A stretch of 16,780 nt of DNA from Candidatus Delongbacteria bacterium (GTDB lineage: Bacteria > UBA4055): the NCBI GenBank assembly GCA_013139625.1, contig WTAK01000410.1:1-16780 (forward strand), in the 5' to 3' direction. The translations under genes were made by a program, and so were the position numbers. Of the stretch, positions 1 through 15,824 are shown in pieces. The notes under the pieces are model-generated. The model made no database searches. It was not told the origin of the DNA and worked only from the letters and a program-made list of their open reading frames with translations. Each line of letters begins with the position of its first letter. Within the stretch, counting starts at the first letter, position 1.

Positions 1-1491
1 TTGCATTTGAGTACAAGGATCAGTATATCAATAATATCTGATTTCTTGATTAAACTTATGAAACTTCCTCTTCGTTTTTTTGATGTAAAGATGACAGGTG
101 ATCTCTTGCAAAGAATAAACGATCATCACAGGATAGAATCATTTCTCACAAACTCTACTTTGAGTATACTGTTCTCTGCTGTAAATTTTGTTATTTTCAG
201 CATTGTAATGATTATTTATGATGTAAAAATATTTACAGTGTTTCTAATTGGTAGTATCCTATACATAGTTTGGATTAGAATATTCTTGAAGAAAAGAAAA
301 GAATTGGATGTTAAAAAGTTTAAAGTAATGTCTGATAACAATAGTAACTTGATCCAGATGATTAACGGAATGCAGGAAATAAAACTTAATACCTGTGAAA
401 AACAAAAAAGATGGGAATGGGAGAATATACAAGCAAAGTTGTTCAAATTGAATGTTAAAAGTCTTACTTTAGAGCAATATCAGAATTCAGGTGGAATGAT
501 CATTAATGAAGGAAAGAATATATTAATCTCATTTCTTTCAGTGTATGGTGTGATCAAAGGTGATATGACACTGGGGATGATGATATCAGTTCAATATATA
601 ATCGGGCAATTGAACAGCCCGATTTCACAGTTCATACACTTTATGCATTCTATGCAAGATGCTAAGATCAGCTTAGAAAGGCTTGGAGAGATACACAACA
701 AAGAAGATGAAGAGAATATTAATGCGAATAAGATTATAGATATTGGTGAAAATAAAACTTTACGAGTAAACAATCTATCATTCCAATATGACGGACCTGA
801 ATCAGAAGTTGTTCTCGATGATGTGAATTTAGTAATACCTGAAGGAAAGATAACTGCAATAGTTGGTTCAAGTGGCAGTGGTAAAACTACTTTAATAAAG
901 TTATTATTGGGATTTTACAAGCCTCAAAAAGGAAATATAATCGTAGGATATAATGACTTAAAGAGTATTAATAGTACCTCATGGAGAAAAAAATGTGGTG
1001 TTGTAATGCAGGAAGGTTATATTTTTTCTGATACTATTGCAAATAACATATCTATAAGTGACGAAAAACCTGATAAAAAAAAATTAAAACATGCGGTACA
1101 TGTTGCCAATATCGAAGAATTCATTGAAACCTTACCATTAGGTTATAATACTAAGATCGGTGCAGACGGTCATGGCTTAAGTCAGGGACAAAAGCAGAGA
1201 ATGCTTATAGCAAGATCAGTTTACAAAAATCCTGAGTTTATTTATTTTGATGAGGCGACTAATGCTTTAGATGCAAACAATGAAAAAGTAATAATGGAAA
1301 ATCTTGATCAATTCTTCAAGGGTAAGACTGTTGTAGTTGTAGCTCACAGATTAAGTACAGTAAAAAATGCTGATCAGATCGTAGTTCTTGAAAAAGGGAA
1401 GATAATTGAACAGGGAACTCATAAAGAACTAGCTGATTTGAAAGGAGCATATTTTAATCTTGTGAAAAACCAATTGGAATTAGGGAATTAA
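1..1491 (+). CDS. Peptidase-containing ABC exporter (bacteriocin/peptide type), 5'-truncated by window edge
   Basis: Inner-membrane ATP-driven exporter with fused membrane and ATPase domains. The 496 visible residues begin inside the transmembrane domain. The family-typical segment LPLRFFDVKMTGDLLQR is at 22-38, and hydrophobic helices follow at about 54-73, 77-95 and 170-200. The ATPase domain is complete: Walker A GSSGSGKTT at 289-297, Q-loop Q337, signature LSQGQ at 393-397, Walker B with DE at 417-418, D-loop ALD at 422-424 and H-loop H449. By family knowledge, this type of exporter (about 700-730 aa) carries an N-terminal C39 peptidase that cleaves a double-glycine leader. That part would lie upstream, so its presence is inferred. 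The frame is open at base 1, and the TTG there is just the window edge. The stop is one base before the next gene, which resembles an HlyD adaptor N-terminus; this supports a type I secretion unit. The cargo is not visible. Confidence 0.9.
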   Translation: MHLSTRISISIISDFLIKLMKLPLRFFDVKMTGDLLQRINDHHRIESFLTNSTLSILFSAVNFVIFSIVMIIYDVKIFTVFLIGSILYIVWIRIFLKKRKELDVKKFKVMSDNNSNLIQMINGMQEIKLNTCEKQKRWEWENIQAKLFKLNVKSLTLEQYQNSGGMIINEGKNILISFLSVYGVIKGDMTLGMMISVQYIIGQLNSPISQFIHFMHSMQDAKISLERLGEIHNKEDEENINANKIIDIGENKTLRVNNLSFQYDGPESEVVLDDVNLVIPEGKITAIVGSSGSGKTTLIKLLLGFYKPQKGNIIVGYNDLKSINSTSWRKKCGVVMQEGYIFSDTIANNISISDEKPDKKKLKHAVHVANIEEFIETLPLGYNTKIGADGHGLSQGQKQRMLIARSVYKNPEFIYFDEATNALDANNEKVIMENLDQFFKGKTVVVVAHRLSTVKNADQIVVLEKGKIIEQGTHKELADLKGAYFNLVKNQLELGN

Positions 1492-1492
1492 T

Positions 1493-1696
1493 ATGCCTGA
1501 TAAAAGTAAGATTAATAATATTATAGACAGAAGTGAAAAGACTCAGGAGATACTGACTTATTCTCCTCATTGGGTCGTAAGATTTGGTATAAGTTTTATT
1601 GCTGTGATGATAATGATTCTAATTTATTTAAGCAGATATATAGAATATTCGGATGGTAAAACTGTTTTTGATGTGATTTTTGAGAAGATATTTTAG
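1493..1696 (+). CDS. Truncated HlyD-type adaptor N-terminus (67 aa membrane protein)
   Basis: A 67-residue protein with a soluble N-terminus (about 1-25), one membrane helix (about 29-46, rich in I, M and L) and a short tail. The segment SEKTQEILTYSPHWVVRFGI resembles the start of Bacteroidetes-type HlyD adaptors that pair with peptidase-containing ABC exporters (S-E-x-x-Q-E-I-L followed by W-x-x-R-x-G-I). Full adaptors are about 400 aa or more with lipoyl and coiled-coil domains. Here the protein stops about 20 residues after the helix, and no lipoyl or coiled-coil coding was recognised in the following 450 bases. The start is supported by AGGGA at 1482-1486 and a one-base gap from the exporter stop, so it is in the same operon. 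It is either a deletion remnant or a genuine small exporter-associated protein; a remnant seems more likely. No function can be assigned from sequence. Confidence 0.6.
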   Translation: MPDKSKINNIIDRSEKTQEILTYSPHWVVRFGISFIAVMIMILIYLSRYIEYSDGKTVFDVIFEKIF

Positions 1697-1784
1697 ATTC
1701 AAAAACTATATAGCTAAATAAATTTTATAATACTTTCATTTTAAACCTAAATTGTTTATTTTATTCAAGGTTAATATTATATCT

Positions 1785-1809
1785 TTAATTTAATTTACAA
1801 TTAAATTAA
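1785..1809. repeat. All-A/T perfect palindrome
   Basis: Arms 1785-1795 and 1799-1809 are perfect 11-base inverted repeats around the spacer TAC, made only of A and T. No T-run follows on the + strand, so it does not look like a terminator. It could be a regulator site or chance in AT-rich DNA. Confidence 0.5.
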
Positions 1810-1866
1810 TAATAAGACAACCAATTGACTGATTCTGGGTCTAAAGACAGTGATAAGTGATGAGTT

Positions 1867-1892
1867 GTAGAGACGACGATTTATCGCGTCTC
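1867..1892 (+). repeat. GTAG-headed hairpin repeat, copy 1
   Basis: GTAG at 1867-1870 leads into a hairpin: GAGACG (1870-1875) pairs with CGTCTC (1887-1892). After a bulged A at 1876, CGA (1877-1879) pairs with TCG at 1884-1886, with a loop of about four bases. It is the first of several hairpins in the window that begin with GTAG or a close variant. Confidence 0.65.
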
Positions 1893-1974
1893 ATAACATA
1901 AAAAGCCATCTATCCCTGTAAAAGTGCAGTTCATCGTAAATAAATAGGCATATAGGTATAATTGATATATTATC

Positions 1975-2001
1975 GTAGGGAACGCAGGAATGCGTTCCCT
2001 A
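1975..2001 (+). repeat. GTAG-headed hairpin repeat, copy 2
   Basis: GTAG (1975-1978) runs into a perfect stem: TAGGGAACGCA (1976-1986) pairs with TGCGTTCCCTA (1991-2001) around the loop GGAA. The 11-base stem is strong for AT-rich surroundings. It lacks a following T-run on either strand that would mark it clearly as a terminator. Confidence 0.75.
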
Positions 2002-2007
2002 AACGAA

Positions 2008-2039
2008 AAAAAAAGATCCTGAAATAAATTCAGGATGAC
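2008..2039 (-). repeat. REP-like repeat (GTCATCCTGAA type)
   Basis: On the minus strand this reads GTCATCCTGAA, a short spacer, TTCAGGAT, then CTTTTTT. The stem is ATCCTGAA (2016-2023) with TTCAGGAT (2029-2036) and a five-base loop. The same pattern recurs at 13907. Such elements are dispersed in many FCB-type genomes and often surface as spurious peptides containing 'LNLFQDL'. Confidence 0.7.
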
Positions 2040-2048
2040 GACCACCCC

Positions 2049-2083
2049 GTCAGCTTGTAGCTGACACCCCTCCATGGGAGGGG
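2049..2083. repeat. Tandem pair of short hairpins
   Basis: Two adjacent perfect stems lie here. GTCAGCT (2049-2055) pairs with AGCTGAC (2059-2065), loop TGT. CCCCTCC (2067-2073) pairs with GGAGGGG (2077-2083), loop ATG. Only one base separates the two stems. Confidence 0.65.
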
Positions 2084-2099
2084 AATAAAAGACAGTGAA

Positions 2100-2120
2100 C
2101 AAGGTGGCTTCAGCCCCTTG
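2100..2120. repeat. Short hairpin upstream of the lipoprotein start
   Basis: CAAGG (2100-2104) and GGCT (2106-2109) pair with AGCC (2112-2115) and CCTTG (2116-2120), leaving T2105 bulged and a two-base gap at the tip that would have to open. It ends 17 bases before the AAGGAG ribosome-binding site (2138-2143), so it lies in the lipoprotein leader if transcription starts upstream. Confidence 0.45.
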
Positions 2121-2149
2121 TAGTGTAGAGAAATAAAAAGGAGTCAAAG

Positions 2150-3304
2150 ATGAAAAGAATAATAGCAATTTTAATCGTAGCGATAATCGTCCTTATTTCA
2201 TGTGGTAAGAAATCAGGGTTTGAAGAAACAACTGTAAATGGAGTAACTCAGTACAAAAATACTGATATCCCATCTGATCCAAATGCAAAACTTGATCTTA
2301 AGAAACTTTATACGATCTCAACAGAAGATCAATCAGATTCTACAGCTTTTTTTAAAAGACCTATTTCATTGTCTGTCGATAAAGATGAAAATCTGTATGT
2401 TCTCGATTTGTTATCAATGAGTGTGAAAAAATTTGATAAAACAGGTGGATTTGTTAAGAGTATAAGCAGGCAGGGAAGAGGCCCTGGAGAATTATTCTAT
2501 CCTTCTGTAATGTTTATTGATAATGACACTTTGAAGGTGATGAGTATTGCATCAAGAAAGATATCAAAATTCGATCTTGATGGAAACTTTTACAAAGATG
2601 TTATGATCGATCAAATGCAATTACAAAATACAAAAATGTCACCTAATGGGCAAAGAATGGTAACTTTCTTAACCAATCAGATAGATAAAGGAGAAGGACA
2701 ACAACCTGATCTTGAGTTCTCACTTGTATCTATGGACAGAGATAGTATGAAAGTGAATGCAACTCTGCACAGTACTATTATATCTCTTCAAGACCTTATG
2801 GCAGGTAAAATGGATTTTAATGATTTGATGATACCTTTCTCACCCGGAGATGACATCGTTTATGTGTCAGAAAATTCGGATGCTCAATATCGAATATTTG
2901 CTTATGATTATAACGGAGATAAGAAATCTGAGATCAGGAAAAGTTTTAAAAAGATCAGATATGGGAAAGTGGAAAAAGGTGAGTACAGAGAAGAATTAAA
3001 GAAAATGGCACAGGGAATAAAGAACATAAAGGTAAGTAATTTCAAAAAAGCTATCAGTAATATTCATACTGACAAATATGGAAGATTATTGATCGTGCCT
3101 AGTATTGATAGAAAGCTGGACGCAGAAGGTGTATACATTGACATCTTCAAAGACGGTAAATTCTTGAACAGAGTTGAGTATAATATAATGGATAAGATGA
3201 GTTTAGGTATTTTAAGCATGGCAAAATCATCAGAATATTTCATAGGTGATAAGCTGTATGTAATGAATATTGAAGAATTAACGATAGATGTTTATGATTA
3301 TTAA
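2150..3304 (+). CDS. 6-bladed beta-propeller lipoprotein
   Basis: A 384-residue exported lipoprotein. The N-terminus has lysine/arginine, a hydrophobic stretch and the lipobox LISC, so lipidation would be at C18. The mature part carries NHL/6-bladed-propeller repeats. The clearest is an 'DKDENLYVLD' strand followed by 'VKKFDKTGGF' and the hallmark GRGPGELFYP at 109-118; similar D-x-x-G strands occur further on. Length and layout fit the 6-bladed beta-propeller family common in Bacteroidetes and relatives, whose members are mostly uncharacterised surface or periplasmic proteins. AAGGAG at 2138-2143, six bases from ATG, supports the start. The gene lies 107 bases upstream of the efflux operon on the same strand, with a hairpin between. 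A role as an accessory of the pump is possible but only positional. Ligand and partner are unknown. Confidence 0.8.
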   Translation: MKRIIAILIVAIIVLISCGKKSGFEETTVNGVTQYKNTDIPSDPNAKLDLKKLYTISTEDQSDSTAFFKRPISLSVDKDENLYVLDLLSMSVKKFDKTGGFVKSISRQGRGPGELFYPSVMFIDNDTLKVMSIASRKISKFDLDGNFYKDVMIDQMQLQNTKMSPNGQRMVTFLTNQIDKGEGQQPDLEFSLVSMDRDSMKVNATLHSTIISLQDLMAGKMDFNDLMIPFSPGDDIVYVSENSDAQYRIFAYDYNGDKKSEIRKSFKKIRYGKVEKGEYREELKKMAQGIKNIKVSNFKKAISNIHTDKYGRLLIVPSIDRKLDAEGVYIDIFKDGKFLNRVEYNIMDKMSLGILSMAKSSEYFIGDKLYVMNIEELTIDVYDY

Positions 3305-3358
3305 AAAGCAGGTATGAGGTATTTAGGTATGAAGTATAAGGTGAAAGATTAAAATACC

Positions 3359-3385
3359 GTAGGGGACGCCTTCAAGTCGTCCCCA
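3359..3385 (+). repeat. GTAG-headed hairpin repeat, copy 3 (between lipoprotein and efflux operon)
   Basis: GTAG at 3359-3362 leads into GGGGACG (3362-3368), which pairs perfectly with CGTCCCC (3378-3384) across a nine-base loop. It matches copy 2 in its flanks (CGTAGGG at the start, CCC then A-rich at the end), but the arms and loop differ. Upstream, AGGTATGA occurs twice (3310-3317 and 3325-3332) as a short direct repeat. The hairpin ends 14 bases before the ribosome-binding site of the channel gene. Confidence 0.7.
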
Positions 3386-3411
3386 TAACGCATTAAAGAA
3401 GGAGAGAAAAT

Positions 3412-4671
3412 ATGAGAATAATAATTTTACTTTTAGCATTCCAATTGGCAAGTGCAGTTACATTTGACTTAGGTCAATGTTTGGATTTTGCTGAGAAGAA
3501 TAACAAAAGTATAGAAATATCGAACTATCAGAAAGATATATCCGGTATGAATGTGAAGGATGCCAGGAACAGGTTCTTTGATGCAAGTGCTAACGGTAGC
3601 TATAGATTATCCGGAGATGATGATGATAATCTGAGTACAAACTTATCATCATCAATAGGAGTAACAGGAACTTTAAGTCCATATCTGATACATAACTATA
3701 AGTACAATAAAGTTTCATCGGCAAATACTTCTTTAGATCATATCGACAATGTAAATAATCTGAGAAATTATGTTACTTCTGCATTTTTTAGTGTTTTGAT
3801 TGCAAAGGAAAATCTGAAACTTCAAATAGACAAACTTGAATACAGTCAGAAGAAATTTGAAGAAGCTGAACTTAGATTTTCTATGGGAAATATGTCTCAG
3901 TCTGATCTATTAAGTTTTGAAGTTACTCTTTCTGAAGATACTATAGATTTAAAGAATAAAGAATCTGACTTGAAGAAAAGAAAGCAGAGTTTATTATATT
4001 TGATGCACAATCAGATAAAGGATGAAGAATTCGAGATCGAATATAAAGAAGAGCTAGATACGAAGTTTGATTTCAATAAAAAAGAATTGATAGAAGAAGC
4101 TTTGAACAATAGACCGGATATTAAGAAGTATCAGAATTATCTAGGTCAACAGGGTTTATTACTTAAGATGCAGTATGATAATTATTTACCGTCGTTAACA
4201 GGTGGATTGAACTATGAATATGGTATTACGGATATATTAAGCTATGATGAGACATCACCTTATGGTAAACCTTTCGAAGGAGTGACTACTGACGGTGTTA
4301 AAGGTTCGCTTACTCTGTCACTAAACCTTAGCTATTCTAATCTAAATGGAATAGACAAGAATAAGGTCGAAGTAAAGAAAAGCAAATTATCACTTGAATC
4401 TAAGATACTTGAAGTAAAGAATGATATCACTTCAAAGCTATTAGATCTTCAAAATCAGAAGAATAATTTAGAGTTGGCTGATAAGCATATTCAACTGGCA
4501 GAGAAAAACTTAGAGCTGGCTGATAAGCTATTTGCAATAGGTGATAAGTCTGTCTCAGATTACTTGAAAGCAAGGAATGATTTTATCAGTGCAAAGAATA
4601 GAAAGATAAATTATCTGTATAGTTTTATCATTTCAAAATATGACCTTTATAATTCCGTAGGGAGAAGATAG
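3412..4671 (+). CDS. TolC-family outer-membrane efflux channel
   Basis: A 419-residue outer-membrane factor, the exit duct of a tripartite pump. A short signal peptide (residues 1-15) ends in ASA, a good signal peptidase I site. The mature protein starts with the TolC-type 'LGQCLDFAEKNNKSIEIS' helix. It then alternates long amphipathic coiled-coil helices (about 110-160, and again about 325-375 with repeated A-D-K-H/L-x-L-A-E-K patterns) with beta-strand segments that would form the barrel ('GSYRLSGDDDDN', 'LTGGLNYEYG', 'GSLTLSLNLSYS'). Two similar halves are typical of the family, and the length is normal. AAGGAG at 3399-3404 with seven-base spacing supports the ATG. Its stop overlaps the adaptor's GTG by one base (TAGTG), so it opens a tightly packed operon with adaptor and RND permeases downstream. 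Confidence 0.9.
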   Translation: MRIIILLLAFQLASAVTFDLGQCLDFAEKNNKSIEISNYQKDISGMNVKDARNRFFDASANGSYRLSGDDDDNLSTNLSSSIGVTGTLSPYLIHNYKYNKVSSANTSLDHIDNVNNLRNYVTSAFFSVLIAKENLKLQIDKLEYSQKKFEEAELRFSMGNMSQSDLLSFEVTLSEDTIDLKNKESDLKKRKQSLLYLMHNQIKDEEFEIEYKEELDTKFDFNKKELIEEALNNRPDIKKYQNYLGQQGLLLKMQYDNYLPSLTGGLNYEYGITDILSYDETSPYGKPFEGVTTDGVKGSLTLSLNLSYSNLNGIDKNKVEVKKSKLSLESKILEVKNDITSKLLDLQNQKNNLELADKHIQLAEKNLELADKLFAIGDKSVSDYLKARNDFISAKNRKINYLYSFIISKYDLYNSVGRR

Positions 4672-5891
4672 TGAAGAACAAAACCTATATAATTTTGACC
4701 GTTATTATCATAGCTGTAATAACATATTTAATAATGAAACCTAAGGCAGAAGATAAAGATGCTAAGATGAAGGAATTGAAAGATTCTGCAAAGGAAGTTA
4801 AGTCCTTTGTAAAGGTCAAGACAGTAAAATTATCTAAGCAGAATTTGGTAATGCATATAAATACCACCGGAACTGCAAAAGCTGAAAGATCAGTAGATAT
4901 ATACCCTCAGGTAAATGGGTTTGTGGAAAAGGTGTATGTTTCTGAGAATTCCCAGGTTTCAAAAGGGGATCTTCTGTTTACTTTAGATAATGAACAGTAT
5001 AAGCTGAATTTGGAAAGGGAGCAGGATAATCTACTTAAAGCTAAGATAGCTTATGGGATCAGAAAGAGTGAGATCAAAGACCAGAGTTCAAAAGAACATG
5101 ATGATAAATTCCAAGAAGAGCTGAATAAGCTTAAGGAACTAAAAAGATCAGGTAAGATATCTTCAAAAGAATATGAGGATCAGAAACTTGAACTTGAAGT
5201 TGACCTTATTTTTAATCAAGGTGGAAGTGTCGAAGTGTTAAAATCTTCTACAGGTTTAACTCAGGCTATGATAAGCTACAAAAAAGCCAAACTTGATTAT
5301 GAGTATGCCACTGTTAGAGCACCTTCTTCAGGATATGTTGCAGACCTTAATATCGTAAAAGGTCAACATTTTAACACAGGGAATAAATCAATGACTATCG
5401 TTGATTATAATATGATAGAAATGGAGATACCTGTTTTAGAAAGTGAAGTTGGTGACTTGGAGGATGATAGAAAGGTTGAAGTTAAATTTGAAGCACTGAA
5501 AGATGTTGTATTCAATGGTATTATTGAAACTATTTCACCGATAATTGACCAGAATACGGGTACTTGTAAAGTATTAGTAAATATTCCTAACGGAGATCTT
5601 AGGATAAAATCAGGGATGCGTGGAAATGTTAAAATTGAAAGTAAGATATATTTTGATAAGATCATCGTGCCTAATGAGGCAATTCTTACCAGAGATAACA
5701 GAAAGCTTGTGTTCATCGTTCAAGATAGTAAAGCTAAATGGATCTATGTAAAGACAGGGCTATCGAATTTCAATTATACAGAGATCATTCTTGATAAAAA
5801 AGATCCTAAGTTGAAATTGGGTGATGATGTTGTTATTACGAATAATTATACATTGGCTCATGACGCGGACGTTAAATTAATTGGTGATTAA
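4671..5891 (+). CDS. RND-pump periplasmic adaptor (membrane fusion protein, HlyD/AcrA type)
   Basis: A 406-residue adaptor linking an RND permease to the TolC channel. It has an N-terminal membrane anchor (about 6-22) without a lipobox. A beta-barrel strand precedes the first lipoyl half ('PQVNGFVEKVYVSENSQVSKGD', about 80-100). A charged coiled-coil hairpin follows (about 110-215), and the second lipoyl half 'ATVRAPSSGYVADLNIVKGQ' then leads to beta-barrel and membrane-proximal domains. Order and length match the family. The start is GTG, overlapping the channel's TAG, with AGGGAG at 4659-4664 six bases upstream; no better ATG lies near. The gene ends one base before the next start. As the only adaptor in the operon, it presumably serves both downstream permeases (inference). 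Confidence 0.92.
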   Translation: MKNKTYIILTVIIIAVITYLIMKPKAEDKDAKMKELKDSAKEVKSFVKVKTVKLSKQNLVMHINTTGTAKAERSVDIYPQVNGFVEKVYVSENSQVSKGDLLFTLDNEQYKLNLEREQDNLLKAKIAYGIRKSEIKDQSSKEHDDKFQEELNKLKELKRSGKISSKEYEDQKLELEVDLIFNQGGSVEVLKSSTGLTQAMISYKKAKLDYEYATVRAPSSGYVADLNIVKGQHFNTGNKSMTIVDYNMIEMEIPVLESEVGDLEDDRKVEVKFEALKDVVFNGIIETISPIIDQNTGTCKVLVNIPNGDLRIKSGMRGNVKIESKIYFDKIIVPNEAILTRDNRKLVFIVQDSKAKWIYVKTGLSNFNYTEIILDKKDPKLKLGDDVVITNNYTLAHDADVKLIGD

Positions 5892-5892
5892 A

Positions 5893-7062
5893 ATGGCATT
5901 TGAAAGCATAAAAAAAGATTACGAACTATATAAATCGAATTATTTCGCAGGAAATGAATTATACTGCCCGTTCTGTGGAAAATTTTACAGAATGGATTTC
6001 TATGGTAAATCAGGTGCCAAGAGTAATTACTGTCCTATTTGTGCCTCTTCAAAAGAAGAGCGAACACTTCTTTTATTTTTACAGTCGAGTACAGAGCTTT
6101 TAAAAGGTGAATTGAAAATTTTAGTAATCAGTGAAAAGAATGAAATTACTGAATATTTCAAGAATTTCCCAAATACGGATGTAAAAATATTTAATGTTAC
6201 AGGTGACTTTTCTATCAGAGATGAAGAACTGAGAGATAAATATCCTGATGATCATTTTGATGTGATCATTTGTAATTATATTTTAGAAAAATTACCATCT
6301 TATAAAATGGTGATAAAAGAGTTGAATAGGATCATTACTTTTGATGGTTTCATAATATTACAGGCAAACATTGATATAAATATAGACAAAACACTGGAGG
6401 CGCCACTTACTTCATATAAGGATAGACTCAAATTATATGGAATACTGGGTAATTATAGAAGATTTGGTACAGATTACGTTAAGGTTCTTAATGATAACGG
6501 TTTGGATGTTCTTGAATATGATTTCGAATTAGGATTGGAAGATATTCCTCATGAAACGGTGTATGATAAATATAAATTTTACTTGGGTTATAAAAATCCT
6601 CCACCTATTATACAAAATTATAATGATTTGGTGGATGAAGCTATTAACGAACATTTCAGATCAAGTAAGAAGAGTTTGTTTAAATCGATGACATATAAAT
6701 ATTTGTTCCTTGTACCTGAATTGTTGAAGAAGAGGATTGATACTTTTGGTAGTAAAATTAGTGAGAAAAAAGAAAACAAGAATAATATCGTATATATGAT
6801 TTATATCCTACTATTCGGACTAGTTCTTTACTGGGGTACTTGGATATTATTTAAAGGGACAGGCCATACCGAAAACTATTTTGTAGGGATATTACATTGG
6901 CTTGTGTTCTTACCATTGTATGTAGTTGGTGGATTTGGAGGCTTATCAATTTTGGGTGGATATGCATTTGGAAATGATGATGCTGGAGGAATAAAAAAAA
7001 TAATTGTGGGGGCATTTTTAATGGTTACACTAATGTTAACAACTTTGCTAGCCTTAGCTTAA
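5893..7062 (+). CDS. Zinc-ribbon, SAM-methyltransferase-like protein with C-terminal membrane helices
   Basis: A 389-residue protein inserted between adaptor and permease genes. A zinc ribbon comes first: CPFC at 25-28 and CPIC at 47-50, then 'SSKEERTLLLFL', like the CPxCGS-LERHRLL motif of a methyltransferase family. A Rossmann-like region spans about 74-165, with 'HFDVIICNYILEKLP' at 121-135 matching the D-V-I-I-C-N-H-x-L-E-H-I-P pattern, then 'DGFIILQANID' and later 'RRFGTDYVKVLNDNGLDV'. The usual glycine-rich SAM motif I is absent ('LKILVISEKNE'), and the family's LEH is LEK here, so catalysis is uncertain. The C-terminus adds about three membrane helices (297-320, 328-354, 368-389). ATG 5893 is one base after the adaptor stop, with GGTGA at 5883-5887; the in-frame TTG at 5881 is less likely. 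Its function in an efflux operon is unknown. Confidence 0.75.
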   Translation: MAFESIKKDYELYKSNYFAGNELYCPFCGKFYRMDFYGKSGAKSNYCPICASSKEERTLLLFLQSSTELLKGELKILVISEKNEITEYFKNFPNTDVKIFNVTGDFSIRDEELRDKYPDDHFDVIICNYILEKLPSYKMVIKELNRIITFDGFIILQANIDINIDKTLEAPLTSYKDRLKLYGILGNYRRFGTDYVKVLNDNGLDVLEYDFELGLEDIPHETVYDKYKFYLGYKNPPPIIQNYNDLVDEAINEHFRSSKKSLFKSMTYKYLFLVPELLKKRIDTFGSKISEKKENKNNIVYMIYILLFGLVLYWGTWILFKGTGHTENYFVGILHWLVFLPLYVVGGFGGLSILGGYAFGNDDAGGIKKIIVGAFLMVTLMLTTLLALA

Positions 7063-7081
7063 GTTTATAAAAGGAAAAATT

Positions 7082-10000
7082 ATGCTTAAAAATATATTAC
7101 TGAGACCTATTACGATAATAATGATATTCACTGCAGTGACAGTATTCGGTATCATATCGTATAATAAATTACCTGTAAACTTATTACCTGATATAAAGTA
7201 TCCGTCTGTAACCGTTTGGACAGAGATGGAGGGAAGTAGTCCTGAAGAGATAGAAAGACTTCTCACTGAACCTTTAGAAGCTTCTATTGCAGGTCTAAAA
7301 GGTATTAAAAGTATAAAATCTGAATCAAAAGAAGATATAAGTTTAATAACGATAGATTTTATCTGGGGAACTGATATGGATTTCACAGTCCTTTACCTCA
7401 GAGAAAAGTTAGATGCTGCCTATTTACCTGAAACAGCAGAAAGACCGAATATTCTCCGTATTGATCCGGGTAAAAAGCCAATTATGATCTTGTCTGTCAC
7501 CGGAAAAGATACAAAAGCCGCAAGAGATGTATCCGAGCATATTATCAAGAAGCGAATTGAGCAGATAGATGGTGTTGCAATGGCAGATGTTATCGGTGGA
7601 GAAGAAGTTGAGATCAGGGTCGAAGCAGATATCGACAAACTTAATACTTTCGGTATCACATTTAACACTCTAACAAATGCTGTGAAAAGTGCAAATACGA
7701 ATTCATCCGGTGGTACTGTAAAAGATGATGTTTATATCTACGACCTTGTAATTTCATCAGAGATAACTGATCTTGCCGACATTGAAAATACTCTGGTAAA
7801 ACAATTAAGGAATAAAAGAAATATCTATATCAAAGATGTGGCAGAAGTAGGCTATTCTGACAAAGAGAAAAAATCTTTCACAAGGTACAACGGAGAAAAT
7901 TCTACAGGTATTCTGATCCGTAAGGATGGAGACGCGAATGCCGTTATAGTGTCAGGGTTGGTGAAGGAAGTAATGGCAGAGTTCAAAGAGACCCTTGATG
8001 TTGATCTTAACATTGTTTATGATCAATCAGATTTTATTTCAGAATCAATAAATAATGTTGTTACAGCTATTCTTCTCGGTGGAATATTATCTTTCTTAAC
8101 ATTATTTCTATTCCTAAGAGACTTTAAGTCACCGTTGAACATTTCTTTGGCGATGCCGATAAGTATATTCGCAACATTCTCATTATTATATTTCTCTAAG
8201 ATATCACTGAATTTAATGTCATTATCAGGATTTGCCCTCGGAATAGGTATGCTGGTGGATAACTCCATTGTTGTATTGGAAAATATCACCCGGCATCGGA
8301 ATCTCGGGAAAAACATCTTCAATGCCTGTCATGACGGAGTGAAAGAAGTTATCCTACCTGTGTCGGCTTCAACATTTACAACGATAATCGTATTTATGCC
8401 GGTAGTATTTGTATCAGGAGCAGCAGGAGTTCTTTTCAAAGATCAATCGATCTCAGTTGCATTTGCTCTGATAAGTTCTCTATTTGTATCGCTGACACTG
8501 GTTCCGGTACTTTATTCAAAATTCTCAATAGAAAAGAAAGCGTCAATATCTGAGGATACAAGTGTTCCGAGTGATAATGGAGTAGTATTCAAAACTGGAA
8601 TATACTGGGCTATAATGATAGCAGTATTCTTCATCATAGTAAAGATAAGTAAGATACCTATTGATGAGCATGCACTGGTATATGTAATGTTCCTTGCACT
8701 GATAACAGATCCAATATTGAAATCAATTGAATTCTTTATCGGTAAAAATAAAGATCTGAAGATGAAGGCAAAGGTAAATTTCTATCTGATAAACTCTATT
8801 TGGCTGATAGTAATATTTTTATTAAGTATTCCGGCAGCATTTATAACTAAGATAGACTATTTTGAGCCTATTCATCAGCTGATATCTCTGACTGATATTT
8901 CTTTCTTGATCGATACAGTGGATAATTTTCTATATGATATTTCAACATTCATAAATGATCTTCTTCAATCTTATGAAGAGGAGTTGAGTACAAATGGATT
9001 CATGTTGTATGCATATATACTCGGTGGAATAGTATTTGTGATAAATCTGTTCGGTCTATTCAATCCTGCTAAATTATACAAAGTGGACAAAGAAACTATT
9101 AAGAAAGTATTCTACCTAACAAGGATAAGAAAATTCTTAAAATTAGTGATCTTTGGTTCAGTAGGTATTCTAATAGGTTTATTTATTTTCTGGGGAAAAT
9201 TATTTGTTAAATTTGTTCTCTTTATTTCTAAACCTATACTGGTTGCATTCGATAAATTTTATGCATGGTTTGAAGAGAAATATCATATTGTACTATTGAA
9301 AGCATTGGACAATAAAAAGATCACTTTAGCATTGGCAGTTGGAGTTCTAGCAGTTTCACTATTGATCTCCTTAGGTATAGAAAAACGAATGATGCCTGAT
9401 GTTGACAGTCACGAATTTATACTATCTGTTGAATTGAACCCGGGAACAAGTATTTTCAGGACAGAGAAAATTATCACGGACTATGAAAAGTTAGTCAATG
9501 ATATGGAAGGAGTTGTATCAGTGTTTTCAACAGGTGGTATTTACGATGAAAAATCTTTACTTACGGGTGCTACGGTATATAAAGGCGATATTCAGGTAAA
9601 ACTTGCAAATGATATTTCCACAAAGAAATTCATAAATGAACTCAGACCTAATATCTCAAGCTATAATTCAAGTTTAGACTCAGATATAAAGCTAAATATA
9701 AATACGGATGTATCTATCCTTGGTGAAATGATAAAACCCGAACAGGGTGATATAAGTGTGAAAATATCCGGCAATAATTTGGAAGATCTGATAGCAATCT
9801 CTGAAAAGGTTATGCAAGAATTAAAAAGCTTGGATAATTTGAGTGAGATCAAATCAGACTTTTCCGGTAACAAACCTCAGATCCAAATAGAATTCAATAC
9901 TAAATTGATGGAAGATTATAACCTTTCAAAGCGTGAAATATCTGATTTTATCAAGATAATGATCAAAGGTGAAATAGCTGTTCAGATCACGGAGAACAAT

Positions 10001-10810
10001 AAACCTGTTGATATTATTGTTGGTACGAATGAAGCTCTTGGGCAAAACATCAAAGAAGTTCTAAAGACTGTTTACAGTAAGAATGACATTGTAATACCTT
10101 TAGATAGATTGGTGTCAATTAATTTTGAGAATGGTCCTGAAGCTATCAAACATGAAAGTCAAAACAGAGTTATTACGATCACTTCAAACATTGTTGAAGG
10201 AAGATTTGATAGGGTTATTGCCGATGTTGAGGAAACTTTATCATCTGTAGAACTTTACAAAGGAATGAGATTAGTGATAGGTGGACAGAATAGCGAGATG
10301 CAGGAATCAATGCAGCAGATCATTTTCATGTTCTTACTATCTTTCGTATTGGTCTATATGGTACTGGCTTCACAATTCGAATCTCTACTCAGCCCGTTCA
10401 TAATAGTTTTTAGTGTACCTTTTGCTTTCATAGGAGTTACAATTGGATTGTATCTAACTGGTCAATCATTCAATATTCTTTCAGGTATAGGTATGATAAT
10501 GTTGATCGGTATCGTAGTAAATGATGCGATCGTTAAAATTGATTTCATCGAGAACGGAGTAAAGGCAGGTAAATCGATCAGAGATGCGATCATTGATGCA
10601 AGTAAGAAAAGGTTAAGACCTATATTGATGACCACAGTTTCAACAGTATTCGGTATGATCCCGATGGCAATTGGCTGGGGTGGATCTTCAGAGATTAGAA
10701 AACCATTAGCTGTGACTGTTATCTTTGGTCTTTCGGCTGCGACTATGTTGATATTGATAATATTACCGGTTGTATTTGAATCGTTAAAAAAAGAGAAGAA
10801 GAATGCTTGA
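7082..10810 (+). CDS. RND efflux permease 1, enlarged by a central multi-helix insertion
   Basis: Inner-membrane RND permease (HAE-1/AcrB-like, proton-driven), 1242 aa against the usual 1030 or so. The start 'MLKNILLRPITIIMI', the porter-domain motif 'LPDIKYPSVTVWTEMEG', TM4 'GIGMLVDNSIVVLENI' (D393, N394) and TM6 ending in 'LVPVLY' (about 478) are all typical. The second half resumes at about 734 and has 'MMPDVDSHEFILSVELNPGTS', TM10 'IGIVVNDAIVKIDFIENG' (N1147, D1148) and 'RPILMTTVSTVFGMIPMAIG'. Where AcrB has D407/D408 and K940, this has D/N and N, as in other LVDN-type pumps. Between TM6 and TM7, residues about 482-733 replace a short cytoplasmic linker and hold several extra hydrophobic segments (about 507-520, 531-553, 567-588, 639-661, 685-723). 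AAGGA at 7071-7075 supports ATG. The substrate cannot be told. Confidence 0.9.
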   Translation: MLKNILLRPITIIMIFTAVTVFGIISYNKLPVNLLPDIKYPSVTVWTEMEGSSPEEIERLLTEPLEASIAGLKGIKSIKSESKEDISLITIDFIWGTDMDFTVLYLREKLDAAYLPETAERPNILRIDPGKKPIMILSVTGKDTKAARDVSEHIIKKRIEQIDGVAMADVIGGEEVEIRVEADIDKLNTFGITFNTLTNAVKSANTNSSGGTVKDDVYIYDLVISSEITDLADIENTLVKQLRNKRNIYIKDVAEVGYSDKEKKSFTRYNGENSTGILIRKDGDANAVIVSGLVKEVMAEFKETLDVDLNIVYDQSDFISESINNVVTAILLGGILSFLTLFLFLRDFKSPLNISLAMPISIFATFSLLYFSKISLNLMSLSGFALGIGMLVDNSIVVLENITRHRNLGKNIFNACHDGVKEVILPVSASTFTTIIVFMPVVFVSGAAGVLFKDQSISVAFALISSLFVSLTLVPVLYSKFSIEKKASISEDTSVPSDNGVVFKTGIYWAIMIAVFFIIVKISKIPIDEHALVYVMFLALITDPILKSIEFFIGKNKDLKMKAKVNFYLINSIWLIVIFLLSIPAAFITKIDYFEPIHQLISLTDISFLIDTVDNFLYDISTFINDLLQSYEEELSTNGFMLYAYILGGIVFVINLFGLFNPAKLYKVDKETIKKVFYLTRIRKFLKLVIFGSVGILIGLFIFWGKLFVKFVLFISKPILVAFDKFYAWFEEKYHIVLLKALDNKKITLALAVGVLAVSLLISLGIEKRMMPDVDSHEFILSVELNPGTSIFRTEKIITDYEKLVNDMEGVVSVFSTGGIYDEKSLLTGATVYKGDIQVKLANDISTKKFINELRPNISSYNSSLDSDIKLNINTDVSILGEMIKPEQGDISVKISGNNLEDLIAISEKVMQELKSLDNLSEIKSDFSGNKPQIQIEFNTKLMEDYNLSKREISDFIKIMIKGEIAVQITENNKPVDIIVGTNEALGQNIKEVLKTVYSKNDIVIPLDRLVSINFENGPEAIKHESQNRVITITSNIVEGRFDRVIADVEETLSSVELYKGMRLVIGGQNSEMQESMQQIIFMFLLSFVLVYMVLASQFESLLSPFIIVFSVPFAFIGVTIGLYLTGQSFNILSGIGMIMLIGIVVNDAIVKIDFIENGVKAGKSIRDAIIDASKKRLRPILMTTVSTVFGMIPMAIGWGGSSEIRKPLAVTVIFGLSAATMLILIILPVVFESLKKEKKNA

Positions 10811-13800
10811 TAATATATTAAAAAGACCTGTTACGATCATAATGTTCTTTATAAGTATCATTATACTGGGTCTAATATCATTTTATAATATTCCACTTGA
10901 ATTAAAACCGGATACGCAATATCCAAGTTTAGTTGTAAATGCCTATTGGAGAAATGTATCACCTGAAACAATGGAAACGAAGGTTATATCTCCGATAGAA
11001 TCTCAAGTATATACTTTAGAGAATATACATAAAGTATCATCAACTTCCCGAAGTAGTTCAGGTTCAATTACAATAGAATACAAAAGAGATACCGATATGA
11101 ATTTCGCGTATCTAGCTTTGAATGAAAAATTATTTCAGGTTAAAAAAGATCTTCCAGATGCTGTAAAGAACTCAGTAAATATTAGAAAATATGTGCCTAG
11201 AGATGAAATTGATGAAAGTAGAGAATTGATAAGTTATAATATTTTCGGAAATCTTCCATTAGATGAAACAGGATTGATAATTGAGAAAGATCTAAAGAAT
11301 CAACTTCTATCAATTGAAGGTATAAACAGTGTTGAGATAAATGGTATTCCTGATAATGAGATCAGAGTTTTAGTTGACAGAGAAAAGGCAGAATTTTATC
11401 AAATAAGTACATTTACATTAAATAGTACTTTATATGAATTGGACAATATTACAAATGCAGGTACTGTTGACGGGTTTAATAAAAATTATGAATACACAGT
11501 CACGATTAGTAATAAATTCAGTAGTATTGAAGATGTTGATAATGCTATAGTTGAGTACAGAGATGGAATTCCGATCAAAATAAAAGATATAGCTGAAGTT
11601 ATCGTTGGTAAGAAAGAACCGACAAGCATAAATAGGATAAATGGAAAAGCATCGGTCAATGTTGTAATAATGAAAGAACCGGGTGCTAATGCTATAACTA
11701 CAGCAGACCTTGTAGAAGAGGTCGTTCAGAATTTTAGAGATAAACATCCTGATGGCACAATTGAAGCGGAAACTAATTTTGATTCTACTGAAACTATCAG
11801 GGAAGAACTCGATGATATAAAGGTCAGGGCATTATTTAGTATAGTTGTTATAATGCTTGTTCTAATGATCTTCCTATTAAATATAAAACTTTCGATAGTC
11901 GTTATAGTCTCTGTTGGTCTAAGCTTGTTAATGAGTGGGTTCTTCCTATATTTTGCAGATTATTCATTGAATATTGTTACGCTGTCAGGATTGATCCTTA
12001 GTTTTGGTCTTCTTGTTGATAATTCAGTTGTTGTATTGGAAAATATCATCAGGCTTTTCAATGAAGGTATGGATAAAGTAAAAGCTTCTATTGAAGGAAC
12101 TAAGGAAGTGATCTTACCTGTTGTAAGTTCAACTCTAACAACATTGGTTGTATTTATACCATTCTTGTATATGTCAGGAGAAAGAAGATTATACTGGATC
12201 CCTTTAGCAGTAGCAGTTGGTACAAGTTTAGTATCTTCACTGATAGTATCAATAACTTTTATTCCTATTTTAACCAGAATATTCTTAACTGAAAAGTATA
12301 GAAAAAAGGCAGAAAAGAAAGGGAATGGTAACTTTACCGGTTATAAAAAATTTCTCACTGTTTTTGTAAATAATAGAAAGATTGTTCTCATATTAACCGG
12401 AATTATCTTTTATTTATCATTCTTTCTTTTTGACAATTATGTTGATCAGGGTAGAAGATTTAATTGGAACCCTGAAAATAATGTAACAGTCTATATTGCT
12501 ATGCCGGTTGGATCAACTGTTGATATGTCTGATAAAATAATTAAGAAATTTGAGAAAAGAGTTATTGAAGTCGGTGGATATGACACATTTACAACAAGCG
12601 TAGGACCACAGCATGCTTATATGCAAATAAAATATACGGACGAAGAATTCTATACTATAGCTCCATTTGATATGGAAAATGAACTTGTTTCAATGGCTGT
12701 AAATTTCCAGGGACCGTTTATTAGCATTAGAAATCCATTAAATCAGTCTAGTAGCTACAGATCAGGCGGTACAACTTCTAAATCGTACAATTCTACGATA
12801 TTGCTCAAAGGTTATAACTTTGATGAGCTTAAAAAAGAAGCTAAAAAGTTAGAGAAATATCTCTTATCAAATAAAAGGGTCAGTGATGTGGATATTGCAG
12901 CTACTACACGATGGTGGAGAAGTTCTGATCTGTTTAATTATACCATAAATATTGATAGAAAGAAATTAGCTGAGTATGACATTAATATAAGAAATTTAGT
13001 CTATGAAATTTTGGCTTCTAGCGGTAGCAGAGGAAGAAACATAATGTTCAATGATGAAGAGATCGAGTTGAATATTAAATATGCTGATTATGAAGATTTC
13101 AATATTAAAGATCTTATGGACAAGATAATTTATTCTAAGGGGCGAGGCTTTAGATTAAAAGAGATAGCTGATATTCGTAAGATCCCTGTGATGAGTGAAA
13201 TAGGCAAGGAAGATCAAAGTTATACAAGGAATATTAGATATGATTATAACTCATCATCCAAGCAGGTCGAGAGATTCAAAAATTCAGTACTGGATACATA
13301 TCCTTTACCTCCGGGATATTCTTTTGATACGACAGATGATAGATGGATGAGTGATGAAGAGGAAGAAGAGGTCATGGGGCTGCTTCTATTAGCTATCATA
13401 CTGGTGTTCATGGTAACAGCATCACTATTTGAGTCTGTGCTGCATCCATTCGTGATCATTTTAAGTATTCCATTGAGTTTGACCGGAGTATTTTTAATCT
13501 TCTTAGTTCTTGGTGAACATTTCGGTGAAGATGCTTACATGGGAGTTATTCTTCTGGAGGGTATAGTCGTAAATAATTCTATTATTTTGATATACCATAT
13601 AAATTCTAAGAGAAAACAAGGCTTTGACCTGATGACCTCTATCATCGTTGGTACTGCTGAAAGGGTAAGACCTGTGCTGATGACATCGATCACTACGATA
13701 CTTGGAGTAATGCCGTTGATAATCAATTCTGATTCGGATAAGAATTTTTGGTATTCATTCTCAGTAACAACTATCGGTGGTTTGACAGCTTCCACTATTT

Positions 13801-13898
13801 TCGTGCTTACCGTTGTGCCTGTGATGTATGCGTTTTTTGAAAGAGGGAAGATGGTTGTTGGTGATTTGATCAGGAATCGATCAGGCTTTTTGGGGTAA
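10803..13898 (+). CDS. RND efflux permease 2, standard length
   Basis: The second RND permease, 1031 aa, normal for the family. It starts 'MLDNILKRPVTIIMFF', then 'PLELKPDTQYPSLVVNAYW', TM4 'GLLVDNSVVVLENI' (D406, N407), the conserved 'EVILPVVSSTLTTLVVFIPF', a short TM6-TM7 linker (about 497-525), TM10 'GIVVNNSIILIYHINS' (N924, N925) and 'RPVLMTSITTILGVMPLI'. It overlaps the end of permease 1 by eight bases (ATG 10803, TGA 10808-10810) and lacks a strong ribosome-binding site, which suggests translational coupling and matched amounts. Two dissimilar permeases sharing one adaptor and one channel recall MdtBC, where the two form a mixed trimer; the same is plausible here but unproven. The operon seems to end here: a REP-like island follows, with a T-run at 13899-13906 but only a weak five-pair stem before it. 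Confidence 0.9.
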   Translation: MLDNILKRPVTIIMFFISIIILGLISFYNIPLELKPDTQYPSLVVNAYWRNVSPETMETKVISPIESQVYTLENIHKVSSTSRSSSGSITIEYKRDTDMNFAYLALNEKLFQVKKDLPDAVKNSVNIRKYVPRDEIDESRELISYNIFGNLPLDETGLIIEKDLKNQLLSIEGINSVEINGIPDNEIRVLVDREKAEFYQISTFTLNSTLYELDNITNAGTVDGFNKNYEYTVTISNKFSSIEDVDNAIVEYRDGIPIKIKDIAEVIVGKKEPTSINRINGKASVNVVIMKEPGANAITTADLVEEVVQNFRDKHPDGTIEAETNFDSTETIREELDDIKVRALFSIVVIMLVLMIFLLNIKLSIVVIVSVGLSLLMSGFFLYFADYSLNIVTLSGLILSFGLLVDNSVVVLENIIRLFNEGMDKVKASIEGTKEVILPVVSSTLTTLVVFIPFLYMSGERRLYWIPLAVAVGTSLVSSLIVSITFIPILTRIFLTEKYRKKAEKKGNGNFTGYKKFLTVFVNNRKIVLILTGIIFYLSFFLFDNYVDQGRRFNWNPENNVTVYIAMPVGSTVDMSDKIIKKFEKRVIEVGGYDTFTTSVGPQHAYMQIKYTDEEFYTIAPFDMENELVSMAVNFQGPFISIRNPLNQSSSYRSGGTTSKSYNSTILLKGYNFDELKKEAKKLEKYLLSNKRVSDVDIAATTRWWRSSDLFNYTINIDRKKLAEYDINIRNLVYEILASSGSRGRNIMFNDEEIELNIKYADYEDFNIKDLMDKIIYSKGRGFRLKEIADIRKIPVMSEIGKEDQSYTRNIRYDYNSSSKQVERFKNSVLDTYPLPPGYSFDTTDDRWMSDEEEEEVMGLLLLAIILVFMVTASLFESVLHPFVIILSIPLSLTGVFLIFLVLGEHFGEDAYMGVILLEGIVVNNSIILIYHINSKRKQGFDLMTSIIVGTAERVRPVLMTSITTILGVMPLIINSDSDKNFWYSFSVTTIGGLTASTIFVLTVVPVMYAFFERGKMVVGDLIRNRSGFLG

Positions 13899-13906
13899 TT
13901 TTTTTT

Positions 13907-13936
13907 GTCATCCTTGGACTTGCTCCGAGGATCCAG
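13907..13936 (+). repeat. REP-like repeat (GTCATCCT type), second copy
   Basis: It begins GTCATCCTTGGA. ATCCTTGGA (13910-13918) pairs with TCCGAGGAT (13924-13932) around the loop CTTGC, a nine-pair stem with one G-T wobble. Head and overall design match the minus-strand copy at 2008-2039, with different arm bases. A related head, GTCATTCTCG, occurs at 14001. Confidence 0.7.
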
Positions 13937-13945
13937 GGGTTATTT

Positions 13946-13993
13946 GTTGCACAGGCTATACCTGACAAGGGGATCGGATCCCCTTGTTGCAAC
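13946..13993. repeat. Nested palindrome / possible three-way junction
   Basis: Outer arms GTTGCA (13946-13951) and TGCAAC (13988-13993) enclose two inner stems: CAGG/CCTG (13952-13955 with 13961-13964) and CAAGGGGATC/GATCCCCTTG (13966-13975 with 13977-13986). The innermost pairs of the last stem must open to form a loop. The segment ATCGGATCC (13973-13981) also has an exact inverted copy at 14058-14066, offering an alternative fold. Confidence 0.65.
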
Positions 13994-14030
13994 AATATTT
14001 GTCATTCTCGTGACTGCCCGTATTTGGCTA

Positions 14031-14060
14031 ATGGGCGACCACAAGGGTAGCCCTTACGGA
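14031..14060 (-). repeat. GTAG-like hairpin repeat, copy 4 (minus strand)
   Basis: Read on the minus strand it begins GTAAGGGCTACCC and continues TTGTGGTCGCCC. GGGC at one end pairs with GCCC at the other. Thirteen bases (14036-14048) are an exact inverted copy of 15760-15772, so this and the repeat at 15750 are clearly members of one family in opposite orientation. Confidence 0.65.
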
Positions 14061-14199
14061 TCCGATTTGGCAGGTAAGTCAAAAGATTAAAATCCCGTAT
14101 CTTCTAAATATTTCACTTGATTATTTTCAAGTCAGGGCATACTATGTAATTATCTTTTGTGTAAATAAATATTTGAGGTAATAAAATAGGGAGTATGTA

Positions 14200-15588
14200 A
14201 TGGCAAAGAAAAAGCTAACAAAGATAGAAGGGTTAAAGAAATCTGTATTTGATGAAATTTTGGTTGATCAAGAAGCAAATCCCAAAGAAATAACTGTTCA
14301 AGAAGCTAGGCTAATTCCAGTGGCAAAACAAGGAAGTGAAATTGCCTTAACTTCTGTCTTTTTGAGTACTCTTAGGCTAGTTAAAGAATTTAGAGAAATG
14401 TTCTTCTCTAAAATTGGGATTTCACAAAAAACAGGTAAATATTATACATTTACAGAAGTGAACTTTTCACAATATGGTGAAAAAGATGCTAGACCTGATG
14501 GGCTGATTTTACAAGTCTCAGGTGGCACTATAAAGAATGCAATACTTTTTGAAATGAAAAATAAAAACAACTCATTAGACTTACCCCAAATTGAGACGTA
14601 TTTGAATATAGCCAAGGAGTTTAAAATTTCTAAAATTATAACTATTTCAAATGAATTTGTTTCTAAACCGACACAATCTCCATTAGCACTGAAAAAGATA
14701 CCGAAAGGGATAGAGCTGTATCATTTTTCTTGGTCTCACATACTTACGATGGCGCATATCTTGTTATTCAAAAATAATACCAATATTGAGGATGAAGATC
14801 AAGTTGAGATAATGAAAGAAGTAGTTTTATATTTAGAGCATGAAATATCAGGAGTTTGTGGGTTTTCACAAATGAAAAAAGGTTGGAAAGAAGCAATTAC
14901 AAAATTGGATACTAATCCAAAAATCAATCGAAATGATGAAGATATTTTAAATGCAGTTACAAGTTGGCAACAAGAAGAAAAAGATATGGCTTTAATATTG
15001 AGTAGAAAGTTAGGTTTGTTTGTTAAAACAGGTTCAAAGAAATATAAAAACAACCTACAACAGAGAATTAACGAAGATGTTGTCAATCTAATTAATAAAA
15101 AAGAGTTAGTATCAACATTTAAAATAAATGGAATTGTATCGGATCTAATAATTAGAGTTGCATTTGATACAAAATATGTAAGAATGGAAGTCAGAACAAA
15201 TGTTACTCAGGATAAGAAAACTATTAAAGGTCAATTAGGTTGGTTTGAAAAACAAATTTTAAAAGCTAAGAAATTTGGTGAAGAAAAATTTACAGAATTA
15301 TCGAATGACTTACATATCGAAATCAATGTAAAACATGCTAAAGATCTTGCTCATAATACATGGGACGATTTTGAGAATTTTTACGAAGAATTGAAATTTA
15401 TTAAAGGTATTAATGATTTTCGAATAATCCTAAATAAAAAATTTGGCAGGAAATTTATATCTCCTAAGATATTTGTTGAAACAATAGAGAAAATGATAAT
15501 TGATTTCTATAAAGTTATTGTGCAACACTTAAAGAATTGGGAAAAACCAACACCCAAGATTACGGATACAGTAGAAGAAGAAAATTAG
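14200..15588 (+). CDS. PD-(D/E)XK nuclease-like protein, uncharacterised family
   Basis: A 462-residue soluble protein with no signal peptide or membrane helices. Residues about 44-140 show a PD-(D/E)XK-type core: E47 in a helix ('GSEIALTSVFLSTL'), D100 in RPDG (98-101), E118-x-K120 in 'LFEMKNKN', then Q130 and Y134 in 'LPQIETYLNIAK'. 'ISKIITISNEF' and 'GIELYHFSWSHILTMAH' follow, both features I recall from a widespread hypothetical family. The C-terminal half (about 250-440) is alpha/beta with no motif I can name. The core suggests a nuclease, perhaps in defence or DNA repair, but activity is inferred. The start is supported by AGGGAG at 14188-14193; an ATG at 14195 stops at once. The gene stands alone between two repeats, with a strong terminator just after it, so it is probably monocistronic. 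Confidence 0.65.
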   Translation: MAKKKLTKIEGLKKSVFDEILVDQEANPKEITVQEARLIPVAKQGSEIALTSVFLSTLRLVKEFREMFFSKIGISQKTGKYYTFTEVNFSQYGEKDARPDGLILQVSGGTIKNAILFEMKNKNNSLDLPQIETYLNIAKEFKISKIITISNEFVSKPTQSPLALKKIPKGIELYHFSWSHILTMAHILLFKNNTNIEDEDQVEIMKEVVLYLEHEISGVCGFSQMKKGWKEAITKLDTNPKINRNDEDILNAVTSWQQEEKDMALILSRKLGLFVKTGSKKYKNNLQQRINEDVVNLINKKELVSTFKINGIVSDLIIRVAFDTKYVRMEVRTNVTQDKKTIKGQLGWFEKQILKAKKFGEEKFTELSNDLHIEINVKHAKDLAHNTWDDFENFYEELKFIKGINDFRIILNKKFGRKFISPKIFVETIEKMIIDFYKVIVQHLKNWEKPTPKITDTVEEEN

Positions 15589-15819: not shown

Positions 15820-15824
15820 ATGTT

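Follow-up and report, generated by a model that had tools for sequence, protein, structure and literature searches.

A gene for a zinc-ribbon, methyltransferase-like membrane protein lies between the adaptor and the permease genes of an RND efflux operon in a Candidatus Delongbacteria genome, and its position raises the question of whether the protein is a part of the pump or has a function of its own. The window, by which we mean the whole stretch of 16,780 nucleotides analysed, is contig C97 of genome G000, a 2.6 Mb metagenome assembly in 486 contigs. We coined the label MTTM for the tailed zinc-ribbon methyltransferase-like protein. Here we put a probability of about 0.5 on the reading that MTTM is a membrane-anchored ligand-binding protein, likely an enzyme, whose work is independent of the RND pump and whose place in the operon is due to a lineage rearrangement. 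On the + strand, an ABC exporter gene cut by the contig start is followed by the genes listed below and then by two others.

2150 to 3304, + strand: 6-bladed beta-propeller protein (PF17170, Pfam) with a lipobox-like N-terminus
3412 to 4671, + strand: TolC-like outer membrane protein (profile match)
4671 to 5891, + strand: RND periplasmic adaptor (PF16576, TIGR01730)
5893 to 7062, + strand: MTTM, tailed zinc-ribbon methyltransferase-like membrane protein, 389 aa, ATG start
7082 to 10810, + strand: RND permease 1, 1242 aa (PF00873), residues ~485-712 forming an additional membrane stretch
10803 to 13898, + strand: RND permease 2 (profile match)

The remainder of the window holds several observations in their own right. 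The ABC exporter (1-1491, type I or bacteriocin-export-like) is 86% identical over 398 residues to a copy in genome G005. The RND operon genes of the same genome pair are only 53-68% identical, and because of this difference the sequences suggest that the exporter was horizontally transferred. Immediately past the exporter gene, and likewise in G005 (L045, ~1445-1650), is an ORF for a small membrane protein of 67 aa (1493-1696), which we take to resemble the beginning of an HlyD-type adaptor. Downstream of the pump, a 462-aa protein (14200-15588) matches no Pfam, NCBIfam or PADLOC family significantly, and an ORF6N protein (15822-16721) strongly matches the candidate defence family PDC-S05 (E 5.4e-121).

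The ORF at 5893-7062 encodes a genuine conserved protein, because a search of 5.8 billion proteins gives 24 homologous clusters at E 0.001 or better, and 21 of these are full length and tailed. The other three (P0004, P0005 and P0009) are shorter, P0004 and P0005 being named partial, and were excluded from alignment A1, which contains 22 full-length tailed members with a mean column identity of 59%. An organism is shown for seven of the 24 homologue rows, six being Delongbacteria and one Clostridiales (P0014), and the latter pairs in the tree with Delongbacteria genome G011. An alternative in-frame TTG start at 5881 would lengthen MTTM to 393 aa. The protein is laid out as follows.

Residues 25-50, 5965 to 6042, + strand: Cys4 zinc ribbon, CPFC ... 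CPIC (alignment)
Residues 73-110, 6109 to 6222, + strand: rebuilt motif I-III region, LKILVISE ... TGDFSIRD (alignment)
Residues 122-135, 6256 to 6297, + strand: motif IV-like segment, FDVIICNYILEKLP (alignment)
Residues 186-195, 6448 to 6477, + strand: family signature, GNYRRFGTDY (alignment)
Residues 302-320, 330-348 and 370-388, 6796 to 7056, + strand: membrane tail of 3 hydrophobic segments (hydropathy)

Ribbon, domain and tail are kept in all 22 aligned tailed members, the three shorter matches among the 24 being excluded. The initial annotation had described a four-cysteine zinc ribbon, a methyltransferase-like fold lacking the glycine-rich motif and about three C-terminal membrane helices, and the analysis agrees with it on each point. 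Cys25, Cys28, Cys47 and Cys50 are invariant in 22/22, and the tail appears as three hydrophobic segments. The match to PF08241 is marginal (21.3 bits against a Pfam cut-off of 21.2) and spans residues 110-155 only, and two further methyltransferase models match below cut-off. The pattern [DEH]xGxG is absent from all 51 rows of a joint alignment (22 tailed, 2 distant tailed and 27 soluble), the scan of tailed rows covering their first 240 residues. Further residues are fixed throughout the tailed family: E81, D105, I108 and R109 in the rebuilt region; Cys127, Asn128, Glu132 and Lys133 in the motif IV-like segment; and, elsewhere, E56-R57, Q157-A158, T167, E169, R178 and the N295-K296 pair directly ahead of the first membrane segment. 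Y268, P275, Y301 and Y357, in the tail part of the protein, are invariant as well. Eight of the ten signature residues are invariant in the 22 members.

MTTM can be compared with the general class I SAM-dependent methyltransferases. Profile comparison gave weak matches to YcgJ (1xxl; residues 116-155, E 0.00081) and to the putative methyltransferase 3cc8 (residues 80-154, E 0.003), and relative to general class I enzymes MTTM lacks the glycine-rich motif I and carries an added zinc ribbon and membrane tail. In the zinc-binding rRNA methyltransferases of the RlmA type, a zinc ribbon also precedes a methyltransferase fold, but these proteins are soluble and have a canonical SAM site; we found no sequence link between them and MTTM. 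An anamorsin-like reading (PF20922) was rejected, since the matches of 17 of the 22 members (best E 1.3e-05) are weaker than those to general methyltransferase models (best 5.3e-10). No relative of MTTM was found in viral contigs, no PADLOC family matches it, and the open-licence literature yielded no paper on a zinc-ribbon methyltransferase that lacks the SAM-binding motif and has a transmembrane part.

The closest comparison is with a large family of soluble proteins. A 269-aa Bacteroidota relative, 32% identical to MTTM, finds 2001 further proteins when used as a query. Our soluble sample of 27 comprised three other sequences plus 24 drawn from the 120 listed of these matches (every fifth), and its consensus therefore leans to the neighbourhood of one query. 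The soluble relatives are ~269 aa long and stop soon past their RxYGxDY region, as the initial annotation had stated, and the tail is indeed an addition: MTTM is a tailed offshoot of the soluble family. Shared between MTTM and the soluble family (labelled PF08241/PF13489, e.g. Bacteroidota L049 9920-10729) are the Cys4 ribbon, whose four cysteines are present in 27/27 sampled soluble relatives, R57 after it, the elements FDxIxCN, LE and TxE, R178, R189 and the GxDY of the signature. In the tailed counterpart of RxYGxDY, R189, G192, D194 and Y195 are invariant and the Y of YG has become F. The soluble proteins differ in having no tail, in carrying an LHxAP-type motif where MTTM has LVISE, in possessing an LDIT segment that is aligned to a gap in MTTM, and in having EH where MTTM has EK. 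Neither the LHxAP variant of motif I nor the LDIT segment occurs in the tailed family. In one genome, G030, soluble relatives adjoin LicD, FkbM, glycerophosphotransferase-like and glycosyltransferase genes, a hint, from that genome only, of surface-polymer chemistry.

The missing glycine motif had earlier been taken as a hint of a dead enzyme. That hint is not supported: the absence is inherited and no sign of decay in the MTTM gene, because all 27 sampled soluble relatives also lack the motif. At its position, 26 of the 27 soluble rows carry LHxAP and the remaining one (G030b) has LHFAAP; some GxG does occur in 23 soluble rows, with all but two instances in or just past the ribbon region.

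One indication of lost function comes from positions with at least 90% conservation among the soluble rows. Of these, 11/19 are retained by the tailed family in the ribbon region, 10/19 in the motif IV region and 11/16 past motif IV, but 0/6 in the motif I-III region, where two of the six are aligned to gaps (0/6 versus 32/54 elsewhere, Fisher p 0.0075). Of the soluble LDIT segment, DI falls opposite a gap in 22/22 tailed rows, and in the segment corresponding to soluble CNHVLEH, EH has become EK in 22/22 rows and CNH has become CNY in most. These changes raise the possibility that MTTM is a pseudo-methyltransferase that has lost methyl transfer and, bound to the membrane, acts as a sensor or scaffold for a small ligand or a partner, not necessarily the pump. 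The new residues are, however, themselves conserved, since 18 of its 53 columns reach at least 90% conservation within the tailed family in this rebuilt region, as would suit a working pocket; in addition, the soluble family also lacks GxGxG, and some sources label that family methyltransferase. Because the region has lost the soluble residues and yet holds new ones constant, a remodelled working pocket would fit both observations better than a dying one. We therefore regard the loss of catalysis as the lesser, though a real, prospect, and the altered motif I-III and EH/CNH residues, which count against the working, pump-independent protein that we favour, leave its enzymatic activity putative.

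Selection bears on the same point. In the comparison of the window with G002, MTTM residues 1-235 have a dN/dS of 0.066, against 0.151 for the tail and 0.040 for permease 1. In that with G001, the tail has 0.257, the domain value not being computable with dS saturated. These values are rough, since dS is high. The MTTM domain is thus under constraint close to that of the pump, and the tail drifts faster than the domain, behaving like an anchor. The tail is nonetheless a constant part of the tailed family. A hydrophobic segment at a threshold of 1.6 was present in 24/24 tailed rows and 0/27 soluble rows (1/27 soluble at 1.3), and a tail profile run over the 13 Delongbacteria genomes recovered 11 of 12 close tailed loci plus one marginal stretch (E 0.009). 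The twelfth locus, G008b, is cut by a contig end, and the profile did not match either of two distant tailed genes in G007. A protein search with the tail alone returned only the query; it also missed known tailed members and so is a weak test. Lysines precede the first segment and separate the second from the third, and by the positive-inside rule the zinc domain would be cytoplasmic.

Taken together, MTTM may be described as an anchored offshoot, so far from Candidatus Delongbacteria only, of a large soluble zinc-ribbon class I methyltransferase-like family. Its N-terminal domain (residues 1-235) would face the cytoplasm and bind a ligand there: probably a nucleotide cofactor, SAM or one related to it, and with it a substrate located in the inner membrane or close by. 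The three helices would hold the domain at that membrane. Compared with the soluble family, its pocket seems to have been rebuilt, and selection to have maintained the new form since; MTTM would therefore be a working ligand-binding protein, and it most likely still acts as an enzyme on a membrane-associated or exported molecule.

Whether that activity serves the pump was examined through gene order in a comparison set of 13 Delongbacteria genomes. As the initial annotation had it, MTTM sits between adaptor and permease 1 with spacers of 1 nt and 19 nt, and a gene in that place is not usual: in all nine readable genomes outside the window's genus (G003, G004, G005, G006, G007, G008, G010, G011 and G012), no gene separates adaptor from permease 1, which range from an 8 nt overlap to 41 nt apart. 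The G009 junction was excluded, as its contig ends inside permease 1. Permease 1 is present in 13/13 genomes, versus 3 of 12 readable genomes with MTTM between adaptor and permease (G000, G001 and G002); these three belong to one genus and form one clade among the labelled tree rows (100/100). The seat of MTTM in the operon is thus a single lineage-specific rearrangement, one genus wide. Even the tight spacing to the adaptor is private to the window's genome, because the relatives G001 and G002 have 139 and 154 nt there; the spacer to permease 1 is 18-21 nt in all three. The longer spacers hold a hairpin repeat, with a 25-base pattern that has 6 occurrences in G001 and 5 in G002 (0 matches for a reversed control) and a 17-base part of it occurring once in G000 and not in the window.

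In the window's genus, MTTM is probably co-transcribed with the pump. On this point a promoter and terminator scan carries no information, as it gave no excess over shuffled sequence in the window at 1400-14300 (57 versus 65.6 promoters; 4 versus 4.1 terminators), in L039 at 8800-10500 (10 versus 7.8; 1 versus 0.7) or in L043 at 6800-8300 (2 versus 2.8; 0 versus 1.6).

Outside the window's genus, the tailed gene occupies several settings. In G005 (contig C11) and G006, it lies directly upstream of the propeller gene of the operon, at distances of 164 and 134 nt. For G010, a propeller sequence starts 135 nt past the tailed gene and runs to the contig end, and a separate contig starts inside a propeller and continues into the RND operon; because one contig ends and another starts in a propeller, we infer that the G010 gene is also upstream of the operon. 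Six of the 12 close tailed loci are therefore at the RND operon (3 inside and 3 just upstream, one of the latter inferred), and six are elsewhere, namely in G003, on contig C51 of G005, in G008 (two in tandem), in G009 and in G011. The tandem pair of G008 lies at 2731-4531 of L033 (G008:C6), the second gene being cut by the contig end ahead of its tail. The distant G007 genes (30% and 29% identity) are both away from the operon as well, making 8/14. No full-length tailed gene was found in G004 or G012, and a close one is absent from G004, G007 and G012. The gene-neighbourhood comparison that had been proposed for homologues keeping the tail thus came out half-way, with half of the close loci at the operon and the other half, or the larger share once the distant genes are counted, showing that the tailed gene is not confined to RND operons.

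A tree of the first 240 residues (32 rows, 18 of them lacking a known gene order, with three rows identical to loci excluded) places the genes at the RND operon in three branches: inside in G000-G002, upstream in G006 (with G010 inferred) and upstream in G005. Genes labelled upstream do not form a single clade, since at least two changes are forced (96/500 shuffles as low), and the three gene-order labels together are clustered on the tree (0/200 shuffles as low). Three branches at the same operon are, in our judgement and with no probability computed, more than chance would readily give. This recurrence speaks for viewing MTTM as a dedicated accessory of the RND pump that modifies or senses cargo ahead of export by permease 1 and permease 2, and a precedent for such cargo comes from 5-methylphenazine-1-carboxylate, a methylated compound that leaves through the RND pump MexGHI-OpmD (PMC9272787). 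We nevertheless hold a dedicated accessory to be unlikely. Half of the close loci are away from the operon, the pump is present in G004, G007 and G012 without a close tailed gene, the upstream arrangement leaves 134-164 nt to the first gene of the operon, and spacing to the adaptor is not conserved. Moreover, the tail, which would have to dock, changes faster than the domain. The pump-component role first envisaged for MTTM is thus unsupported, the gene being absent from most pump operons and present elsewhere, and MTTM is probably a neighbour of the RND pump rather than a working part of it. A functional link with the pump is made conceivable by the recurrent nearness in separate branches; in its most specific form, in which a membrane-anchored, rebuilt methyltransferase-like domain was repeatedly brought to a phylum-wide pump whose permease has about five or six additional membrane segments, and modifies or senses membrane-embedded cargo through a cofactor pocket that differs from known SAM sites, we think it rather improbable.

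In Burkholderia, the first gene of the BpeEF-OprC operon encodes the putative lipase/esterase LlpE, which is conserved throughout the genus and is co-transcribed with the pump yet dispensable for efflux (PMC4396416). LlpE and MTTM are alike in being enzyme-like genes inside an RND operon, and the parallel counts against an accessory role. MexG is likewise an extra gene in an RND operon. The methyltransferase PhzM is soluble and canonical, and its gene is not inserted between adaptor and permease. We found no paper in the open-licence literature that joins Delongbacteria with RND efflux.

Permease 1 has a peculiarity of its own. An insert at 8534-9217 (residues 485-712) adds ~230 residues and about 5-6 hydrophobic segments between its halves and lies beyond the parts of permease 1 to which RND models match. 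All 13 Delongbacteria genomes conserve the insert, and 0/48 other genomes searched gave a match to it. The insert had been put forward as the partner of MTTM. We rejected it as evidence of a docking site, since its presence in all 13 genomes includes the three without a close tailed homologue.

The neighbours at other loci offer another account of position. Propellers (PF17170) are greatly expanded, with 4 to 30 matches in each of the 13 genomes, often in tandem, and one also heads the RND operon in G001, G005, G006, G008, G011 and G012. Outside the window's genus, the tailed gene often comes shortly after one for a protein that looks secreted. A propeller gene lies directly upstream of the tailed gene in G010 (12 nt), on contig C51 of G005 (7 nt) and in G011 (8 nt), and a serpin gene lies 15 nt upstream of it in G009; in G003, a serpin gene is the second gene upstream. 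Serpins are few: 11 of the 13 genomes have matches, nine of them with 1-2 complete copies and G010 and G012 with nothing but fragments, and one is beside or two genes from the tailed gene in G003, G005 and G009 (L027, L030 and L031). In G006, the gene 3 nt upstream of the tailed gene resembles a type IIG restriction enzyme-methyltransferase identified on contig C51 of G005. Directly past the tailed gene on the latter contig is a stem-loop with a T run (-19.9 kcal/mol, z -7.16, 0/200 shuffles as good), strong by folding though absent from the consensus scan output, and because of it the tailed gene there probably ends a propeller-propeller-MTTM unit.

It is conceivable, then, that the tailed gene is a passenger of recombining arrays, traveling with propeller and serpin genes, and that propeller paralogues make the RND operon a landing place. 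The abundance of propellers and the dispersed repeats seen at the junctions in G001 and G002 are in keeping with this, and a recombination-prone neighbourhood of propeller paralogues could yield the same pattern of nearness to the operon. The proposal accounts for position, not for function, which purifying selection shows to exist; moreover, the loci on contig C51 of G005, in G009 and in G011 have the same opposite-strand flanking gene and amount to one locus within a single genus, leaving few independent cases. As a full explanation of MTTM, we consider it highly unlikely.

The membrane-anchored, pump-independent protein proposed here has implications for its family and for the reading of operons. 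Sequence searches of solved structures returned short matches to general methyltransferases only, and the family's own pocket thus looks unsolved. If the rebuilt pocket works, MTTM would be a membrane-bound branch of an abundant family (2001 matches in one search), and membrane anchoring would narrow its range of substrates. MTTM also cautions against taking one operon as a functional unit, because comparison shows that an insertion which looks integral to the pump in the window is one genus wide.
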